Shown here: piece by piece, positions 1,334-20,287 of the stretch
Numbering within the stretch: position 1 is the first letter of the stretch
How the letters are laid out: each line of letters starts with the position of its first letter
The notes under the pieces: generated by a model
Seen by the model: the letters and a program-made list of their open reading frames with translations, nothing else
Database searches by the model: none
Told to the model about the DNA's origin: nothing
Position numbers and translations under genes: made by a program
Origin: a virus
Virus record (IMG/VR): IMGVR_UViG_3300042922_000212
Span: 1-20,694 of that record
Reading direction: 5' to 3' (one strand)
DNA length: 20,694 nt

Positions 1334-3409
1334 TCATTCCTCCAATCTTGATAATGAAAAGCTTACAGTATAGATATCCAGTTCAGTTTCATTAAGCTGA
1401 ATGCCGGTTATCTGCGCCGGGAATCGGTAACCTTTATCGTTTCTGTAATAAAGTTCAGACATTTCCAACATAGCCACTGTATGGTCAAGTTCGCTAAGTG
1501 TTATAGCATATTCGTGTGTTTCTGTATGTGTTAAAAATTCTGTTGATTGACTAATCGGATATACTCTGCCATTCAACTGTATCTGATACTGATCTTTTCC
1601 AATAGTGATATTCTTCCTCTTGTCAGAGTTAAGAGTTTTCCAAAGGTTGATATAATCACTTCCATTATTTAAGACGATACCAGCAAAATCTAACTTAACA
1701 GCAATAATATCTGAATCATTATATCCAGTACCGTTAATTGCCCTGGCGAAATATTGATTATCACCGCATCCAGCTAAAATATCGTTATATGTATTGGTTC
1801 CAATCGTAGCAATCAGGCTGAAAATTGTATCTTTAGGCCCCTTGTGGTAAATCAAGTTACTGGGTGTTATAGATTCTACCAAAAGTGCAATAAAATAATC
1901 CTCTGTGCTTCCGCCGCTTATTTTTGGTTTCTGTGGTCTGGTAAAAGATATTGTAAAGTTGTAGGCAGTTTCATCCGACCATAGTCCATATATATTGTTA
2001 ATTTTCAGTGCTAATGTATAATCACCAATGTCAATAAAATCTGGTATGGTATAGGAATTATTCTCCGCTATTTGCTCTCCGCTGTCATGCATCAGAATTC
2101 CGTATTTATAGATTTTCAACTCGAATAAATTTTGTCCAGTACTTTGCCATGTAACAAGCGGATGCATACTATTGCTTACACCTGTTATAACTGGTAGTTC
2201 TGGTTTACCGATAGAATAAAAGTTTTGCCAAGCTGTCCATGGTGATTCTTCGTAAAATGGATTCTGGGTCTTTACTCTCCAGCTATAATTTCCACCACTT
2301 ATAATACCTTTTTGTACTATGCTTATTGTTGATGTGGTAGATTGGGCAATGGTTATAGGTGTATCTGTGCCTTTACGTAACTCAATAGTGTATCTTGCTT
2401 GCGAATATCCGTAATCATCTACAAATTTCCAGCGAAAATATATATCGTCTGAACTGTTAACCGTTGTATCTACTGGACTTATCGGAGTAGGTGTTAAGGG
2501 AACTGTCGCGCCAATGTTAAAAGATGCGCTTTCACTGAATGGTGACCACGAATCCAACATATCCTTAATTCTTACTTTCCATGCTACGGTTTGACCGTTA
2601 TCAAATGCAAATGCTGGTATAGTGTAACCGTTTTCAGTTCCTCCGGTTGCTGTTGTATATGTTGCAAATCCGTTAGTACTAAACTGCACTTCAAAATTCT
2701 TTTGTATGCTTGTATTCTGCCAATTTAATTTTATTTGACCAGCCTTATTTCTTACTGTATTGCTCGGTACTAATCCAGTAGGTGCAACCGCCATAGGATC
2801 TTCATAAGTTACGGTAACAGATGGAATATAACTTCCCTCTCTGCTTGAAATATTGGCATAACACAATTGCATTTTCATGCTGTTTAGGTAATAACTGGTA
2901 TCACAGCGTAATCCAATAATAAGGTTTTTATCAACGAGCTTTGGACTGTTAATAGGCATTGTTACAACAGCGCCTGCCATTGCGGTAATGTTTAAAGAGC
3001 TATCTTGTCCAAGTGCATTGATATTTATGATATTATCTGCACTGCTGCTGTCTGCAACTTGTTTGTGCGTTAGAGTTGTCTCAATCTCAGCTTTATTTAA
3101 GGTTGTTAGACACCTTGCCCGGATAACAAATGGATAAGATGTATCATTTTCATATTGTGTACCAGATGAATCAACCGCCTGGAAACTATTCAGTTTAAAG
3201 CTAAATGTTACACCTGTAATCACCTTATCATCTGGTATAGAAGATAAATCAAAAGCGAAAACGTCCCTTGCGAACATCAGACCATTTATATAGGCAAGTA
3301 ATAAGGGATTTGATTGTCCGTAATTTGAAGTATAAGAAGAGGGAACTTGGCCTGTTGCATATAAATAGGTATCCGCCGAACAATTTATAACTGCTGTATG
3401 CTGTGCCAT
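1334..3409 (-). CDS. Large tail-tip structural protein with DNRLRE-like and fibronectin-III-like domains
   Basis: This 691-residue protein has an ATG at 3409 that overlaps the tape measure stop (TAATG), with GGTGAG just upstream. Residues about 10-205 look like a DNRLRE-type domain: SADTYLYATG, then an R..FAFDLSSIPD..ITGVTFSF segment. Three beta-sandwich, fibronectin-III-like repeats follow at about 208-300, 303-400 and 402-490, with recurring W, Y.V and 'W.V+' patterns (for example VAWKVRIKD and YSWRVKTQN). The last 190 residues end in a compact beta-rich part (QYQIQLNGRVYPIS ... YRNDKGYRFPAQITGIQ) of the kind found at the end of Dit-like proteins. It sits in the Dit position between tape measure and hub, but is far longer than usual Dit proteins. 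It probably forms the distal tail disc with added surface domains for carbohydrate or host contact; that role is inferred. Confidence 0.6.
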   Translation of the reverse strand: MAQHTAVINCSADTYLYATGQVPSSYTSNYGQSNPLLLAYINGLMFARDVFAFDLSSIPDDKVITGVTFSFKLNSFQAVDSSGTQYENDTSYPFVIRARCLTTLNKAEIETTLTHKQVADSSSADNIININALGQDSSLNITAMAGAVVTMPINSPKLVDKNLIIGLRCDTSYYLNSMKMQLCYANISSREGSYIPSVTVTYEDPMAVAPTGLVPSNTVRNKAGQIKLNWQNTSIQKNFEVQFSTNGFATYTTATGGTENGYTIPAFAFDNGQTVAWKVRIKDMLDSWSPFSESASFNIGATVPLTPTPISPVDTTVNSSDDIYFRWKFVDDYGYSQARYTIELRKGTDTPITIAQSTTSTISIVQKGIISGGNYSWRVKTQNPFYEESPWTAWQNFYSIGKPELPVITGVSNSMHPLVTWQSTGQNLFELKIYKYGILMHDSGEQIAENNSYTIPDFIDIGDYTLALKINNIYGLWSDETAYNFTISFTRPQKPKISGGSTEDYFIALLVESITPSNLIYHKGPKDTIFSLIATIGTNTYNDILAGCGDNQYFARAINGTGYNDSDIIAVKLDFAGIVLNNGSDYINLWKTLNSDKRKNITIGKDQYQIQLNGRVYPISQSTEFLTHTETHEYAITLSELDHTVAMLEMSELYYRNDKGYRFPAQITGIQLNETELDIYTVSFSLSRLEE

Positions 3410-5475
3410 TATCTCACCGTCCCTTGCCTTGATTTTTGCCTTAAATCATTGAAAACCTTAATTACCTTTTGTATTTCGTCTAAGTCAGATGCTGGAATTG
3501 TCATATGCTCAATATAAATATTTCCTCCGCCCATATTGCTTTCCGCATTGCTATATATTTTACTTCCTCTTGGAAGAACTACTTTCTCCGGGCCTCCCTC
3601 TCCCACCCAAGCTTCGCCCCCAGGATAAAAGTCTGTACCGGTTGCAAAACCTCTTGAACCGCTTGAATTGCTATAATCAACAGTCCAATAAGCGTTACCA
3701 TATTCCTCGGACCTTTTTTTAACCACGTTTACTTGATTAGATGCATTTTGTGCACTGCTTAAGGCTTTATTTGAACTATTAGCAAGGTCTGCAATGGAAT
3801 TTTTTGCATCATTCATAGCTTCTTTTACGCCTGCGCTTCTTCCGATTATCAGACCAATTATTCCAGCTACCGCTACTAAAATTAACAGATATGGTGCAAG
3901 TGCAATTGCTGCAGATGCTCCCGACACTCCCACTGCCGCATTCGAAACTGATAATAGGGTATTAGCCATAGTCATTCCGCCTGCTGCCATTGCAACGCTT
4001 CCTATAACCAAAGCCAATCCTCCAAGAACAACTCCGGCGGCTAAAACCTCCGGCGGCATACCACTTATTATATCTGCAAAAGTTTGGAATACTGGAAGAA
4101 GTGCTTCACCTAATTTATATTTTACAGCATCAAATTTTTTGTTCATTGCAACCATGGCATCATCCATGTTGTTGAATGACTGTATAGTTTCATTGTCCAT
4201 GACATACCCGGCTTCATGGGCTTGCTTTGCATATTCTTTTATTCCGTCACTGCCTTCGATTATTAAATTATTTAGGCTCATTGCGGATTTTCCAAAAACA
4301 GCCATCGATAAAGCATCTTTTTCGGTTTCATTTTTTACTTTTCCAAGGGCATCAATGGTGTCATAGAAAACTTCTTCGTTATCCCTTAATTGACCGCCTG
4401 CATCTTTTATCCTGACATGAAGTTTTGCAAAGGCTTCCGCCGCATCCCCTGTACCACTTCTGGCAGCATCCATGTTTTTAGTCATTTTAGCAATAGAACT
4501 ACCGATATCCTCTGCCGATATTTCAAGGTATTCCGCTGCATAATTGAACTCTTGTATGGTATCTGTGCTTAATCCAGTTTTATGCGATAGCTCATCTACT
4601 GCCCCAGCTGTTTCCGCTGTGCTAAGTGTTGCTTTTCCAAGTGCCGTTAATACAGTTCCAATGGTTAAAACTGCGGCTCCTGCTTTTTCACTTACACCAT
4701 CAAATTTACTGGCCAACGCTTCCACTGCTGGACTTACATCAACTCCAATTGCGCTTGCTACGCTGCGGATTGTATCACCGAAACTTCTTGTACTGGTTTC
4801 ACTATTTTTAACCTTTTCGTCATTGTCATGCAATTCGTTGTTCAGCTTTGAAAGGGCGGTTTCATTTTGTAGATAGGCAGAATATAAAGCATCCAACTGC
4901 TGCTCGTTCATTTCTCCGCTTGTTCTGGCATCATCGTAGGCTTTCTTTGTCATTTCGACCTTTTGTGTCTGCAAGGCTATTTTGTCAGATAGCAAGTTGC
5001 TCTTTTGAGTAAGCTGTTCGGTATCCGTTGCAAATTCCTTGGATTTTTCTGATGCAAGTTCAAACTCTTGCTGTAGCAATGCCATTTTTCTATCAATATC
5101 TGACATTGCTACTTGGTCCATTTTTTCTTTATTGGCTGCAAGCTCGTTATTAAGCTTTTCAAGGGCGGTTCTTTCCTTGAGGAGTGCTTTGTCGGCATCA
5201 TCGGTCTTTTTGTTATTTCTATCCTTAGACGACATTACATCATCGTATTTTTTCTTGGCTTCTTCCAGCTTTTGATTTTGGAGTGCAATTTTCTGCGTGA
5301 GCTGATCTTCCTTTATTTTTAGCTGGTCGGTTTCGCTACCATACTGCTTTGCCATTTCGGAAGCAAGCTTAAACTCCTGGTCTAATAATCCCATCTTACG
5401 GTTAACTTCCGTAATTCCGCCACTAAACTGGCTATAATCTAGTCCAAGTACTATTGTCTTTTTATTCGATGCCAT
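3409..5475 (-). CDS. Tail tape measure protein
   Basis: The protein has 688 residues from ATG 5475. A TTG five codons upstream is in frame, but GAGGGGTGG lies just ahead of the ATG and inside that extension, so the ATG is preferred. Residues 24-222 are highly charged coiled coil and contain two diverged copies of a roughly 97-residue unit, each starting with M.LL.QEF.LASE and ending in LNNEL. The middle (about 240-430) is amphipathic, and about 470-545 holds long hydrophobic stretches (VLAAGVVLGGLALVIGSVAM, APYLLILVAVAGIIGLIIG) typical of the part inserted in the host membrane. Near the C-terminus, GTDFYPGGEAWVGEGGPEKV and LPRGSKIYSNAE match the conserved tail-end motif of tape measure proteins. 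The protein sets tail length (roughly 100 nm at about 1.5 Angstrom per residue) and scaffolds tube assembly. It follows the chaperone genes, as expected. Confidence 0.92.
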   Translation of the reverse strand: MASNKKTIVLGLDYSQFSGGITEVNRKMGLLDQEFKLASEMAKQYGSETDQLKIKEDQLTQKIALQNQKLEEAKKKYDDVMSSKDRNNKKTDDADKALLKERTALEKLNNELAANKEKMDQVAMSDIDRKMALLQQEFELASEKSKEFATDTEQLTQKSNLLSDKIALQTQKVEMTKKAYDDARTSGEMNEQQLDALYSAYLQNETALSKLNNELHDNDEKVKNSETSTRSFGDTIRSVASAIGVDVSPAVEALASKFDGVSEKAGAAVLTIGTVLTALGKATLSTAETAGAVDELSHKTGLSTDTIQEFNYAAEYLEISAEDIGSSIAKMTKNMDAARSGTGDAAEAFAKLHVRIKDAGGQLRDNEEVFYDTIDALGKVKNETEKDALSMAVFGKSAMSLNNLIIEGSDGIKEYAKQAHEAGYVMDNETIQSFNNMDDAMVAMNKKFDAVKYKLGEALLPVFQTFADIISGMPPEVLAAGVVLGGLALVIGSVAMAAGGMTMANTLLSVSNAAVGVSGASAAIALAPYLLILVAVAGIIGLIIGRSAGVKEAMNDAKNSIADLANSSNKALSSAQNASNQVNVVKKRSEEYGNAYWTVDYSNSSGSRGFATGTDFYPGGEAWVGEGGPEKVVLPRGSKIYSNAESNMGGGNIYIEHMTIPASDLDEIQKVIKVFNDLRQKSRQGTVR
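4810..5406 (-). repeat. Diverged internal duplication in tape measure coding sequence
   Basis: Codons about 24-120 (5406-5116) and 126-222 (5100-4810) encode two similar coiled-coil units. Shared blocks are M.LL.QEF.LASE, DKIALQ.QK (QKIALQNQK in copy one), K.YDD, ETAL.KLNNEL (RTALEKLNNEL in copy one) and a closing D..EK or N.EK segment. The DNA copies have drifted, so this is an old duplication. Confidence 0.8.
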
Positions 5476-5476
5476 T

Positions 5477-6081
5477 TTACCACCCCTCAATCTCTTTAAG
5501 ACTGTTTATCTTTTTAGCTTTATTTCCACCAGAAAAATACTTTGACTGATACTGTTCATTTCGCATTGCATGTGCTTCCATGGCTTTTTTATCTGCATAC
5601 ATATCAATCATTTTAATTATTTTTGATAATCTGCTATTCCAGAATTCTTGTTCTGGCCTATTCATTTCAATGCAGTAGAAATAGTAAAGGTAATCAAGGT
5701 CTATTTCAATATCTTCTATTTCGATATTGCCTTTACTATCTCCTCTATTGTTTTTTTTTGAGCTTCATCGTCAATATCCCCACCATATGTAGCTTGGTAT
5801 TCCTGCACAATTTTTGTTACTACTTTTGGGCTCATTTGGCAAACTAAGGTTCGAGCTTTTTGTATTGTCATTTCCTCCCCGGCAGCCTTGGAAGTCATGT
5901 AAACTACTTTTGCACAATATTCTGGTACACTCGTCTGCTGCATTAGGCCTTTTAATCCACCAATAGCCTTGTCATTGATAAAAGAAAGAGCCCTAACATT
6001 AAAGGCTAAGTTAAGGCTCGTTTCATCTTTAAATTTTAATTCAATCTCTGTTGCATCTTCTACGTTAAGAGTTTTTTTCAT
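5477..6081 (-). CDS. Tail assembly chaperone, -1 frameshift fusion product (gpGT-like)
   Basis: The first frame (ATG 6081) can continue into the -1 frame at the run of nine A's on the coding strand (5759-5751). The zero-frame codons there are CAA AAA AAA ACA. A -1 slip after residue 110 gives AAC AAT AGA and then 91 codons without a stop down to TAA 5479, a product of 201 residues. The extension reads NRGDSKGNIEIEDIEIDLDY, then LYYFYCIEMNRPEQEFWNSR and further basic/coiled sequence, which looks like the T part of lambda gpGT-type chaperones. Tail chaperone pairs of long-tailed phages commonly use this mechanism. The fusion is thought to bring tail tube subunits to the tape measure protein. 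The T part has an internal ATG at 5665 but no ribosome site before it. The slip efficiency cannot be read from the sequence. Confidence 0.82.
5716..6081 (-). CDS. Tail assembly chaperone, zero-frame product (gpG-like)
   Basis: This is the 121-residue product that results when ribosomes do not slip; it ends at TAG 5718 shortly after the A-run. It starts at ATG 6081, which closely follows the major tail protein stop, with a GGGGG tract at longer spacing as a weak ribosome site. The sequence (TEIELKFKDETSLNLAFNVR, then ALSFINDK, then PEYCAKVVYMTSKAAGEEMT) is a mostly helical acidic protein, with no membrane segment. Its length and place between the major tail protein and the tape measure gene match gpG-type tail chaperones. 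It is not expected to remain in the virion. Confidence 0.85.
   Translation of the reverse strand: MKKTLNVEDATEIELKFKDETSLNLAFNVRALSFINDKAIGGLKGLMQQTSVPEYCAKVVYMTSKAAGEEMTIQKARTLVCQMSPKVVTKIVQEYQATYGGDIDDEAQKKTIEEIVKAISK
5750..5760 (-). promoter_or_regulatory. Programmed -1 ribosomal frameshift site
   Basis: The coding strand reads CAAAAAAAAAC, with an A AAA AAA heptamer in the zero frame. Both tRNAs can re-pair after a one-base backward slip. The shift joins the gpG-like frame to the 91-codon gpT-like frame, and the frame arithmetic (first codon positions 0 mod 3 to 1 mod 3 on the minus strand) fits exactly -1. I see no obvious strong downstream stem, so a simple slippery run may be enough. 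Confidence 0.8.
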
Positions 6082-6087
6082 ATTTTA

Positions 6088-6681
6088 TCAGCCCCCTGTT
6101 CCTGTTACTAAGGTTCCGCCTGGTATTGTATCAAGAAATGCATCTGCAACGGTTTTTGTAAATTCGGTATTAGCAGTATCACCAAATGAACGTAATCTTC
6201 CGTCAAATGTTCTCTGCACCAGTCCTACTGTAATAGAATCTGTGGAGAAATTAATATTGTCCGTGGATTGCTGTGTAGTCTGCGCTCCCATTCTTGGCTT
6301 TCCTTTGAAGAACCAGCACAATTCCCTGTTGTCCCCGGTTTCCTCTAATTCAATACCAATTGCGATATCTTTTGGCTGAGCCCCTACCACTTCATGCAGT
6401 GTTCCGTCAGTATAGGTGTTACCATAAATTTCAGCCCTGACTTCTATAAACACTTTATTAATATCAAGAGCCAGTTCCCCGCCGGTTAACCGGCTGATAT
6501 CCTCTTCCTTAACTCCTGCTCCGTATAATGTTCCGGTAGCCACTGTAGGAGTAAATTGAACCTGCATAGGCTTACCAAATTCCTTGATAGGGCCATGCTT
6601 AAATGAGGTTTTTGTATCCTCTAATACCATTGCATAAACGATTCTTTTAATATTAAATCTATTCGCTTTTCCGCTTGGCAT
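6088..6681 (-). CDS. Major tail (tube) protein
   Basis: This 197-residue protein begins at ATG 6681 after a GGAAGGGGA site. Its start (MPSGKANRFNIKRIVYAMVL), the phrase KEFGKPMQVQFTPTVATGTL, the LTGGELALDINK segment and a beta-rich body with PKDIAIGIELEE match the phi13-type major tail protein family. It would polymerise as stacked hexamers around the tape measure to form the tail tube. The C-terminus is Gly/Thr rich (PGGTLVTGTGG) and probably flexible. It lies between the tail-completion gene and the tail chaperones, exactly where major tail protein genes are found. High copy number is expected for this product, consistent with its strong ribosome site. Confidence 0.9.
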   Translation of the reverse strand: MPSGKANRFNIKRIVYAMVLEDTKTSFKHGPIKEFGKPMQVQFTPTVATGTLYGAGVKEEDISRLTGGELALDINKVFIEVRAEIYGNTYTDGTLHEVVGAQPKDIAIGIELEETGDNRELCWFFKGKPRMGAQTTQQSTDNINFSTDSITVGLVQRTFDGRLRSFGDTANTEFTKTVADAFLDTIPGGTLVTGTGG

Positions 6682-15340: not shown

Positions 15341-15349
15341 ATTATACCA
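15341..15349 (-). promoter_or_regulatory. Extended -10 promoter candidate for the late operon
   Basis: The coding strand reads TGGTATAAT, an extended -10 element (TG, one base, TATAAT). It overlaps the stop codon of the regulator gene. No good -35 box stands at 17 bases, as is common for promoters that need an activator or an extended -10. The expected start near 15334 gives a leader of about 105 bases before the metallophosphoesterase gene. Confidence 0.5.
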
Positions 15350-15779
15350 CACTATTTTTGTGATTTGTGTGAAACTTAAGGTAAATGCTGATTTTCTTTG
15401 ATATTCCACTGCGCTCAATATTTAATTGTTCTGCGATTTCCCTTTGCTTCATACCATCAATAAACCTTAGTTCAAATATTCTTCTTAATTCGCTTTCCGA
15501 AATATCTGATATAAATTCCTCAATTTCATTTGCAAGACTTCTGGCTTCTTTTAATCGGCTTTCCTTTTTTCTTATTAGCTTATGCAGCTCTTCCGCTTCT
15601 GTAGGGTCCTCCATTTGTACTCCTACCCTATATTCCGTGTAAGGAAAGTCTTTCATAGATGCCTTAACCTTGCCAGCTACAACCGTAACCTCCCTATCAT
15701 ACAATCTATCCAATCTTTTTTCTTGGTCCCTTATTTCGGCTTTTAAGCTCTTATATTGGCATAACTTTTCTTCGGTCAA
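15342..15779 (-). CDS. Phage late transcription regulator, sigma-region-4-like (RinA/ArpU-like)
   Basis: The gene encodes 145 residues from TTG 15779, with AAAGGATG upstream; no ATG is near, so the TTG start is well supported. Residues 1-30 and 58-90 form charged coiled-coil helices. Residues about 94-133 contain a sigma-70 region-4-like helix-turn-helix (ISESELRRIFELRFIDGMKQ, then REIAEQLNIERSGISKKISI), where 'L+FIDGM.Q.EIA..L......S' is typical. Proteins of this shape (RinA, ArpU, DUF1492-like) activate late gene transcription in Firmicutes phages. It lies just before the late operon and its 3' end contains an extended -10 promoter candidate. Such control is known for the family; the exact target here is inference. 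Confidence 0.8.
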   Translation of the reverse strand: MTEEKLCQYKSLKAEIRDQEKRLDRLYDREVTVVAGKVKASMKDFPYTEYRVGVQMEDPTEAEELHKLIRKKESRLKEARSLANEIEEFISDISESELRRIFELRFIDGMKQREIAEQLNIERSGISKKISIYLKFHTNHKNSVV

Positions 15780-18289: not shown

Positions 18290-18790
18290 TCAATGAAATA
18301 TCGCAACCATGTTTGGAAATGGAGCTGCATCTTCACATCCTCCAAATTTTAACCGCCCTTTTACAAATCTTATTTCTGCATGATCCTTTATGTATTTGTG
18401 AAAAGCTTCTGTGTCTGTCCTTACAGGAATAAGCATTACCACTTTAGTATTTTGCTTAAGACTTTCTATATAGCATTTTCTTATCCAATCAACTTGTCCT
18501 GGCTTATACTCGGTAATATGGTGCCCTCTTTCTTGGCACTTTTTCTTTTTACAATTAGCCTTACATGGTTGTTCGGGTTTTGAGTAAGGAGGATTGCAGA
18601 ATACTACATTGCCCCCCCAGTCTTGTTTTAGTCCGTCCTGTTCTTCGGTATAATAATGATCACATTTATGATTTGTTTTATCAGCACAAGGATCCAGAGT
18701 AAAATTAAACTCCTTGTTCAGCTCATTGAAAAACCATTGTGGTGTTGCCCATTTATCTGTTTTACTGCTAAACATTAATTCTGTATTCAT
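18290..18790 (-). CDS. DNA N6-adenine methyltransferase, phage Dam-like (PF05869 type)
   Basis: The gene encodes 166 residues from ATG 18790 with AGGAGGAAAGA upstream. It has the family start KWATPQWFFNELNKEFNFTL, then DPCAD, the GLKQDW segment and the catalytic NPPY motif (66-69) that identifies amino-methyltransferases. The motif is followed by a roughly 30-residue insert with C76, C80, C85, H90 and H91, then 'WIRKCYIESLKQNTKVVMLI' and the closing GRLKFGG part. The SAM-binding region is circularly arranged, as in small phage Dam-like enzymes. It probably methylates phage or host DNA to evade restriction or mark DNA. Its recognition sequence cannot be read here. It is one of two methyltransferase-like genes flanking a PP-loop gene. 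Confidence 0.9.
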   Translation of the reverse strand: MNTELMFSSKTDKWATPQWFFNELNKEFNFTLDPCADKTNHKCDHYYTEEQDGLKQDWGGNVVFCNPPYSKPEQPCKANCKKKKCQERGHHITEYKPGQVDWIRKCYIESLKQNTKVVMLIPVRTDTEAFHKYIKDHAEIRFVKGRLKFGGCEDAAPFPNMVAIFH

Positions 18791-18807: not shown

Positions 18808-19596
18808 TCAACCATCGTAGCAGCCGCAAGGGGCTTCGTTATCATCGTCAAGGAATGAACATATGCCGATTTGTGCTTCCTCGGCTTCTATGTAACTTTT
18901 CCAGCTCCAATTACGGCCTAATCCTTTTACAGTTAATAGATTATCCTTTGCATTATCTTCGATTGATATTGCTCTTTCGTATAGATCAGGGTGATTTCGT
19001 TTAAGTTCCCTAATCTCATGCTTTTTCATGCTCGGACAGAAGAAACAACTACTCTTTCCCGGAAGTGGCAAACCTTCATCCTGTATTACCCTTTCGCAAT
19101 CCTCACGATACCATCCCCAATCAATAAGGGCATAGACCTTTTTGTACTTCTTATCCTGCAGGTCAATGGCAAAGGCATTGGTCTTTCTTCTCTCTTCACC
19201 TGCATCGTAACCGACATACTTAAAGACTTTTTCGCCTTGTTTCCATACTTCTTTGCAAGGCATATAATTATTACAATATTTGTCCTGCGGTCCAACTTTG
19301 TGCTTAAGCGAGCATTTTTTAAACCCATAAGCAATACTTGGCAAAGACTTACTTTTTAAACATTCATGCTCTAATGTATACACGTTCCCATCCTTATCAA
19401 CATTTCTAACCACCGTTATTTCTTTCAAATCATGCTCTTTAAGCCACTTATTAAATGTACCTATAAATTGGTACGTCTCTGGTCTCTCCCCCCCCGTATC
19501 GGCGAATAGGATAAGGTCTATGGGTATTTGCTTACGATACATACCTATTATCATCGCGGTGCTATTCGTTCCACCGCCAAAACTTACTATGTTCAT
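18808..19596 (-). CDS. PAPS reductase-like PP-loop protein
   Basis: This 262-residue protein starts at ATG 19596 with AAGGAGCGTG upstream. The N-terminus carries the PP-loop, SFGGGTNST (5-13), followed by ILFADTGGERPETY (29-42), typical of the adenylyl-activating PAPS reductase family. Later parts include KKCSLKHKVGPQDK (93-106), YVGYDAGEERR (127-137) and a CFFCPS motif (184-189). Ten cysteines in all (79, 95, 108, 113, 167, 184, 187, 246, 257, 259) hint at a metal site. The family activates a substrate with ATP and, in relatives, transfers sulfur (tRNA or DNA thiolation) or reduces sulfate. The phage members' substrate is not established. Sitting between two DNA-methyltransferase-like genes, a role in nucleic-acid modification is plausible but inferred. 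Confidence 0.8.
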   Translation of the reverse strand: MNIVSFGGGTNSTAMIIGMYRKQIPIDLILFADTGGERPETYQFIGTFNKWLKEHDLKEITVVRNVDKDGNVYTLEHECLKSKSLPSIAYGFKKCSLKHKVGPQDKYCNNYMPCKEVWKQGEKVFKYVGYDAGEERRKTNAFAIDLQDKKYKKVYALIDWGWYREDCERVIQDEGLPLPGKSSCFFCPSMKKHEIRELKRNHPDLYERAISIEDNAKDNLLTVKGLGRNWSWKSYIEAEEAQIGICSFLDDDNEAPCGCYDG

Positions 19597-19609: not shown

Positions 19610-20287
19610 TTAATTCGGTATCACTTCGGGGTAATCATAGATTTCCATTTGTATACCATCATCCATATTCACTTTACCAGCCCATTGTTCTGCCATTGCT
19701 TTTGCTATTCCGGGAAAGGTCTTACTTCTCATTTTTGCCCTTTCAGGTCCCGGCGGCATCTTCCATACTCTTTGTTCTCTTCCTGATACTATGTCAGTAG
19801 GTGTTAATACAGGCAACCCCTTAAGCCATAAGCATGTTGCTTTGGTTTCTCCGTGTCCAAACTGCCAAGGCTGTATTATCTGGTCTGGTTTTCGGTAGTT
19901 AGTACTCATAATTCCGATAGGATTTTCTATTGCAATTCTAGGGCAATCTGCATTAGTAAATAATATGAAAAAGTCTATACCTTGCTGCTGTCTGCCATCT
20001 TTCTTTTTTTTATCAAAGTATCTTGCTCCGGATACTGCTAAATGCGTGCAAGGAGGAAAGGCTATTATCATGTCCCAATGATTCTGTGATAACTCCGTAT
20101 GTAGCACTCCGTCCATCGTATAGAAATATGTGCATCCATCAAGCAATGGCAAAACATTATTCTGTATGTGCCATTCCGGGTGTCCTCCACTGCAAGGCTC
20201 TATATCACAGCTATAAGCTTCATGTCCAAGCTTCCTGAGTTCAATCGTTACTGCCTGGCTCTCTTCGCAGGCTACTAATATTTTCAT
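19610..20287 (-). CDS. DNA (cytosine-5)-methyltransferase-like protein
   Basis: This 225-residue protein starts at ATG 20287; the ribosome site is weak (GTGAACG) and inside a hairpin. It begins with KILVACEESQ and CDIEPCSGGHPEWHI, has IIAFPPCTHL with the Pro-Cys motif (C80), and IAIENPIG with the ENP motif (121-123). These correspond to motifs IV and VI of C5-cytosine methyltransferases, but motif I is unusual and there is little room for a target-recognition domain; the usual length is 300 or more residues. It resembles short phage proteins annotated as DNA cytosine methylase. Catalysis is plausible, because PC and ENP are both present, but not certain. It may be a stand-alone enzyme or a partner of the next genes. 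Confidence 0.75.
   Translation of the reverse strand: MKILVACEESQAVTIELRKLGHEAYSCDIEPCSGGHPEWHIQNNVLPLLDGCTYFYTMDGVLHTELSQNHWDMIIAFPPCTHLAVSGARYFDKKKKDGRQQQGIDFFILFTNADCPRIAIENPIGIMSTNYRKPDQIIQPWQFGHGETKATCLWLKGLPVLTPTDIVSGREQRVWKMPPGPERAKMRSKTFPGIAKAMAEQWAGKVNMDDGIQMEIYDYPEVIPN

Follow-up and report, generated by a model that had tools for sequence, protein, structure and literature searches.

The question raised by this locus is how the second of two overlapping reading frames, located between the major tail protein and tape measure protein genes of a virus, is translated. The first-pass annotation had proposed that a programmed -1 frameshift fuses both into a single tail-chaperone product. 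The analysis covered the whole stretch of DNA, hereafter the window, with a length of 20,694 nt (IMG/VR record IMGVR_UViG_3300042922_000212, positions 1 to 20,694).

Genomic context

Tail assembly chaperones have their standard place between the major tail protein and tape measure genes, and it is here that the two overlapping frames were found, in a layout of the lambda G/GT type (Table 1). The upstream side of the first, G-like frame is occupied by the genes of a tail terminator, the phi13-type major tail protein and further head-tail proteins, and the terminase, portal, prohead protease and capsid genes are present elsewhere in the window. The start codon of G is preceded by a G-rich stretch resembling a ribosome site (AGGGGGC). 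Searches of the window for Rfam families and tRNAs produced no matches.

Table 1. Coordinates of the chaperone locus, its neighbours and the elements around the slip site (window numbering).
Feature	Position	Strand	Remarks
Major tail protein (phi13 type), upstream neighbour	6088..6681	-	TIGR01603 5e-20; phrog_88 1.9e-24
First frame (G-like)	5716..6081	-	Putative tail assembly chaperone, 121 aa; ATG 6081, TAG 5718-5716
Slippery heptamer A_AAA_AAA within C-A9-C (5760-5750)	5752..5758	-	Canonical, in phase; homologous place in relatives
Spacer between heptamer and main stem	5744..5751	-	8 nt
Predicted stem-loop	5677..5743	-	14 bp: GGAGAUAGUAAAGG (5743-5730) with CCUUUACUAUUUCU (5690-5677)
-1 frame (T-like) extension	5477..5752	-	91 residues past slip; TAA 5479-5477
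62-aa ORF from internal ATG 5665	5477..5665	-	Probably no separate gene
Tape measure protein, downstream neighbour	3409..5475	-	688 aa; phrog_1533 1.1e-41

Several other proteins of the window deserve mention. A 691-aa protein encoded directly after the tape measure gene (1334-3409, minus strand), with a match to an Ig-like (Rha78A-type) domain and no PHROG match, is a possible distal tail protein, and a 145-aa protein with a sigma-70 region 4-like domain (15342-15779, minus strand) is possibly a late-gene regulator. A Dam-type DNA adenine methyltransferase (18290-18790, minus strand) adjoins a PAPS-reductase-domain protein (18808-19596), beside which a 225-aa protein without a Pfam match is encoded (19610-20287, minus strand).

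Predicted identity of the proteins

The structure model of the G protein (pLDDT 86) matched the predicted "Tail assembly chaperone protein" of Siphoviridae sp. cthL03 (E 2.1e-7, TM 0.73), and the top chain among the solved structures re-aligned by VIA was the HK97 chaperone 2ob9, with a weak match (Z 4.2 over 87 residues, rmsd 5.7, 6% identity). The structure search with the model of the T-like -1 frame gave no significant match; a weak one was seen to a 47-aa protein of phage cthL03, and the 195-aa tail assembly protein of Paenibacillus phage Wanderer matched both the G and the T models weakly. No Pfam or NCBIfam chaperone family was matched by G and T of the window or by nine members of the first frame, and the sequence search of solved structures returned just one unrelated weak match.

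Slip site and reading frames

The nine A's after a C, which the first-pass annotation had placed at codons 108-111 of the first frame, were found with the coordinates and lengths given there: CAAAAAAAAAC occupies positions 5760-5750 of the minus strand and is read in phase as CAA AAA AAA ACA in ORF 6081..5716, with the heptamer at 5758-5752 as the only in-phase tandem heptamer at this site. A -1 frame open for 91 codons and ending just ahead of the tape measure gene was likewise confirmed, its TAA lying 1 nt before the tape measure ATG (5475-5473). From stop to stop this frame comprises 95 codons, compared with 52 codons for the longest -1-frame open run within the other genes. It opens just 6 nt upstream of the heptamer, so that a shift must fall within the few codons at or after the A run. 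The predicted fusion of 201 residues was computed at 23.1 kDa, close to the roughly 23 kDa expected previously, and the unshifted product of 121 aa at 13.4 kDa.

In-phase A_AAA_AAR occurred five times in the 4,552 codons of the other genes of the window, which makes the heptamer alone weak evidence; for the tripeptide QKK, synonymous codon choice alone yields A_AAA_AAR in about one third of cases. The A9 at the slip is the sole run of this length in the window, in which no enrichment of A runs of at least 8 nt was detected. Such a run at the frame junction brings in a different possible source of the fusion, namely slippage of the RNA polymerase, which would add an A and generate A10 mRNAs translated normally into the -1 frame; the bacterial polymerase does slip efficiently on nine A's or T's in vivo (PMC5009743).

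Conservation in related loci

The decisive support for a frameshift is conservation in the relatives. Both frames were present in 14 IMG/VR loci (L005, L008-L015, L020, L025, L032, L034, L035), with L006, L002 and L003 being same-contig duplicates of L008, L009 and L010, respectively; the site sequences of L016-L018 and L033 are identical to those of L015 and L032, and hardly any difference separates L032 from L034. All 14 have kept the overlap, with an in-phase heptamer at the homologous position. The length of the first frame varied from 119 to 131 aa, and the two slip lysines belonged to the eight invariant columns of a nine-sequence G alignment. Homopolymers are generally error-prone, and a single gene might be split into two frames by a mistake in sequencing or assembling the A run; however, contigs that are divergent and have other sequences at the slip show the two-frame layout as well, with a distance from the slip to the zero-frame stop of 37-49 nt (in most, exactly 40 nt counted from the heptamer start), which leaves such an error hardly credible.

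The heptamers of the relatives were A_AAA_AAA (within A9 or A8), A_AAA_AAG (within A7G or A9G) and A_AAT_TTT. The A9 run is shared by the window with L008, L009, L010, L015 and L025, while L005, L011-L014 and L020 have seven A's only, followed by G, and the A3T4 site of L035 contains no run over four at the homologous place. Because of this last form, the feature kept across the relatives is the in-phase tandem slippery heptamer and not a long homopolymer. The first-pass annotation had pointed to conservation of the A run in related phages as a check, and this held for the heptamer, in phase throughout, but not for the long run, which is present at the junction in the window and not kept across the family. 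Polymerase slippage may contribute at the A9 of the window, but it would fit the A7G members poorly and could not explain the AAATTTT member or the family. A mixed origin of the fusion in the A9 members, by ribosomal tandem slippage and RNA-polymerase slippage together, with the family shifting between a purely ribosomal (A7G, A_AAT_TTT) and a mixed (A9) signal, is conceivable, if rather unlikely.

The arrangement named beforehand as speaking against a frameshift, i.e. relatives with separated frames and a strong ribosome site before the second one, was looked for and not found. In the phage records, neither DNA-level and tblastn searches with both frames of the window nor a search with the first frame of L012 recovered relatives, and the first frame of L035 gave weak matches only (E 0.3-0.4), to features annotated mostly as tape measure. 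Searches of bacterial and archaeal genomes also produced no relatives of the frames. Locus L004 was rejected as a relative: it is without the G/T overlap and looks unrelated.

Coding selection and initiation in the second frame

Past the G stop, the relatives differed from one another mainly at third codon positions of the -1 frame. For the A7G group, the bias included the first 13 codons past the G stop, which are mostly located before the internal ATG. A conserved EIDFDYLxYxYCI block is also found upstream of ATG 5665. Eight of nine T sequences matched phrog_10988 (best E 1.3e-5), a family of unknown function.

A second gene separate from the first, initiated at ATG 5665 either from a ribosome site belonging to it or through coupling to the G stop, is suggested by the 62-aa ORF, which is present and would, as foreseen in the first-pass annotation, be listed separately by gene callers, and by the 47-aa piece of cthL03 that was filed as a protein of its own. 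However, no Shine-Dalgarno sequence was found before this ATG (TTTCTACTGCATTGAA), again as claimed earlier, nor any strong one before the first -1-frame start codons of the related loci; the conserved residues begin well upstream of the ATG, which is missing in L020 and L025, the latter having no ATG, GTG or TTG in the -1 frame until 150 nt past the slip. The second frame is, then, under protein-coding selection without an initiation signal of its own; internal initiation would not account for the conserved T protein, and a pair of independent genes is very improbable. With the overlap and heptamer in all related loci and no strong Shine-Dalgarno sequence, the earlier reading of a G/GT-type -1 frameshift is supported.

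Downstream RNA structure

The stem-loop predicted downstream of the heptamer (-22.6 kcal/mol, z -5.4) includes an inner 7-bp hairpin (5729-5723/5713-5707). In a folding scan of the window strand (1,032 segments), the two most extreme z-scores were located at this stem just past the slip, and by raw folding energy the region ranked ninth. L014 was the sole relative similar to the window, its predicted stem being strong (z -4.7) and equally spaced from the slip; many relatives lacked such a stem, and several had no excess structure downstream of the slip. As a group, the sites had a mean z of -1.08 against a background of -0.16 (p 0.004, or 0.04 without the window), and these p-values are to be taken as support, not proof, given that the sequences are related. 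No compensatory changes were found in the A7G group when it was checked for a shared downstream structure. As judged from these predictions, conservation does not extend to the strong stem. The first-pass annotation had not seen this stem and had not weighed polymerase slippage at A9.

Syntenic phages

Further cases were located via the tape measure protein. A first frame followed by a -1 frame was found in Butyrivibrio phage Arawn with the heptamer G_GGA_AAC, in Parageobacillus phage NIIg3.2 with G_GGA_AAG, and in phage NatCom_17901 and MT836035 with A_AAA_AAC. Single comparisons with the profiles suggest homology of Arawn T (E 4e-4, probability just 36%) and G (E 7e-4, probability just 26%) to the window pair. 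The probable T frame of Arawn itself (L037, 2244-2431), which would be reached by G_GGA_AAC, is unannotated and falls in a gap without listed genes.

The G_GGA_AAC and G_GGA_AAG sites, the short A7 and AAATTTT sites of the closer relatives, and the in-phase tandem heptamer of the window with a stem 8 nt downstream, features used by ribosomal slipping, all speak against RNA-polymerase slippage as the main source of the fusion, which we regard as improbable.

Proposed mechanism and known systems

The best explanation of the locus is a lambda G/GT-type tail assembly chaperone pair expressed via programmed -1 ribosomal frameshifting, with a probability of roughly 0.9. What the analysis shows is the sequence arrangement with its conservation, selection for coding in the T frame and a predicted stem; the slippage itself and the production of a G-T fusion are inferred from these. 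The majority of ribosomes would complete the 121-aa G protein. With two lysine tRNAs on AAA AAA at 5757-5752, a ribosome, probably paused by the stem, would occasionally slip back one base and read the 91 codons of the -1 frame to yield the 201-aa fusion. If the pair works as in lambda and TP901-1, the tape measure protein would be coated by the G part, with the T part recruiting the major tail protein.

The frameshift device is long known, and the case described here is an ordinary one, newly seen. Lambda gpG/gpGT is a pair of similar layout, and its slip sequence differs from the A_AAA_AAA of the window. The lambda products G and GT arise at about 30:1 and join the tape measure to the major tail protein (PMC5009743). 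TP901-1, a siphophage of a Gram-positive host, has the same gene order as the window, while slipping on GGGAAAG instead of A_AAA_AAA; loss of either its G or its T part abolishes tails, and a permanent fusion results in non-infectious particles (PMC4493119). In Paenibacillus larvae phages, AAAAAAG was tentatively named as the slip in the upstream tail assembly gene (PMC6003738, PMC6256684); this is the heptamer of relatives L005, L011-L014 and L020, in contrast to the A9 of the window, and the frameshift is a predicted one there as it is here.

The set of phages with frameshifted tail chaperones would thereby gain an uncultured group; in the phage records searched, neither window frame had a sequence match. 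In annotation terms, T domains are the probable identity of both the 62-aa ORF and phrog_10988 ("unknown function"). The natural series of slip sites at one homologous position, A9, A8, A7G and A3T4, serves for comparison of ribosomal and polymerase slippage.
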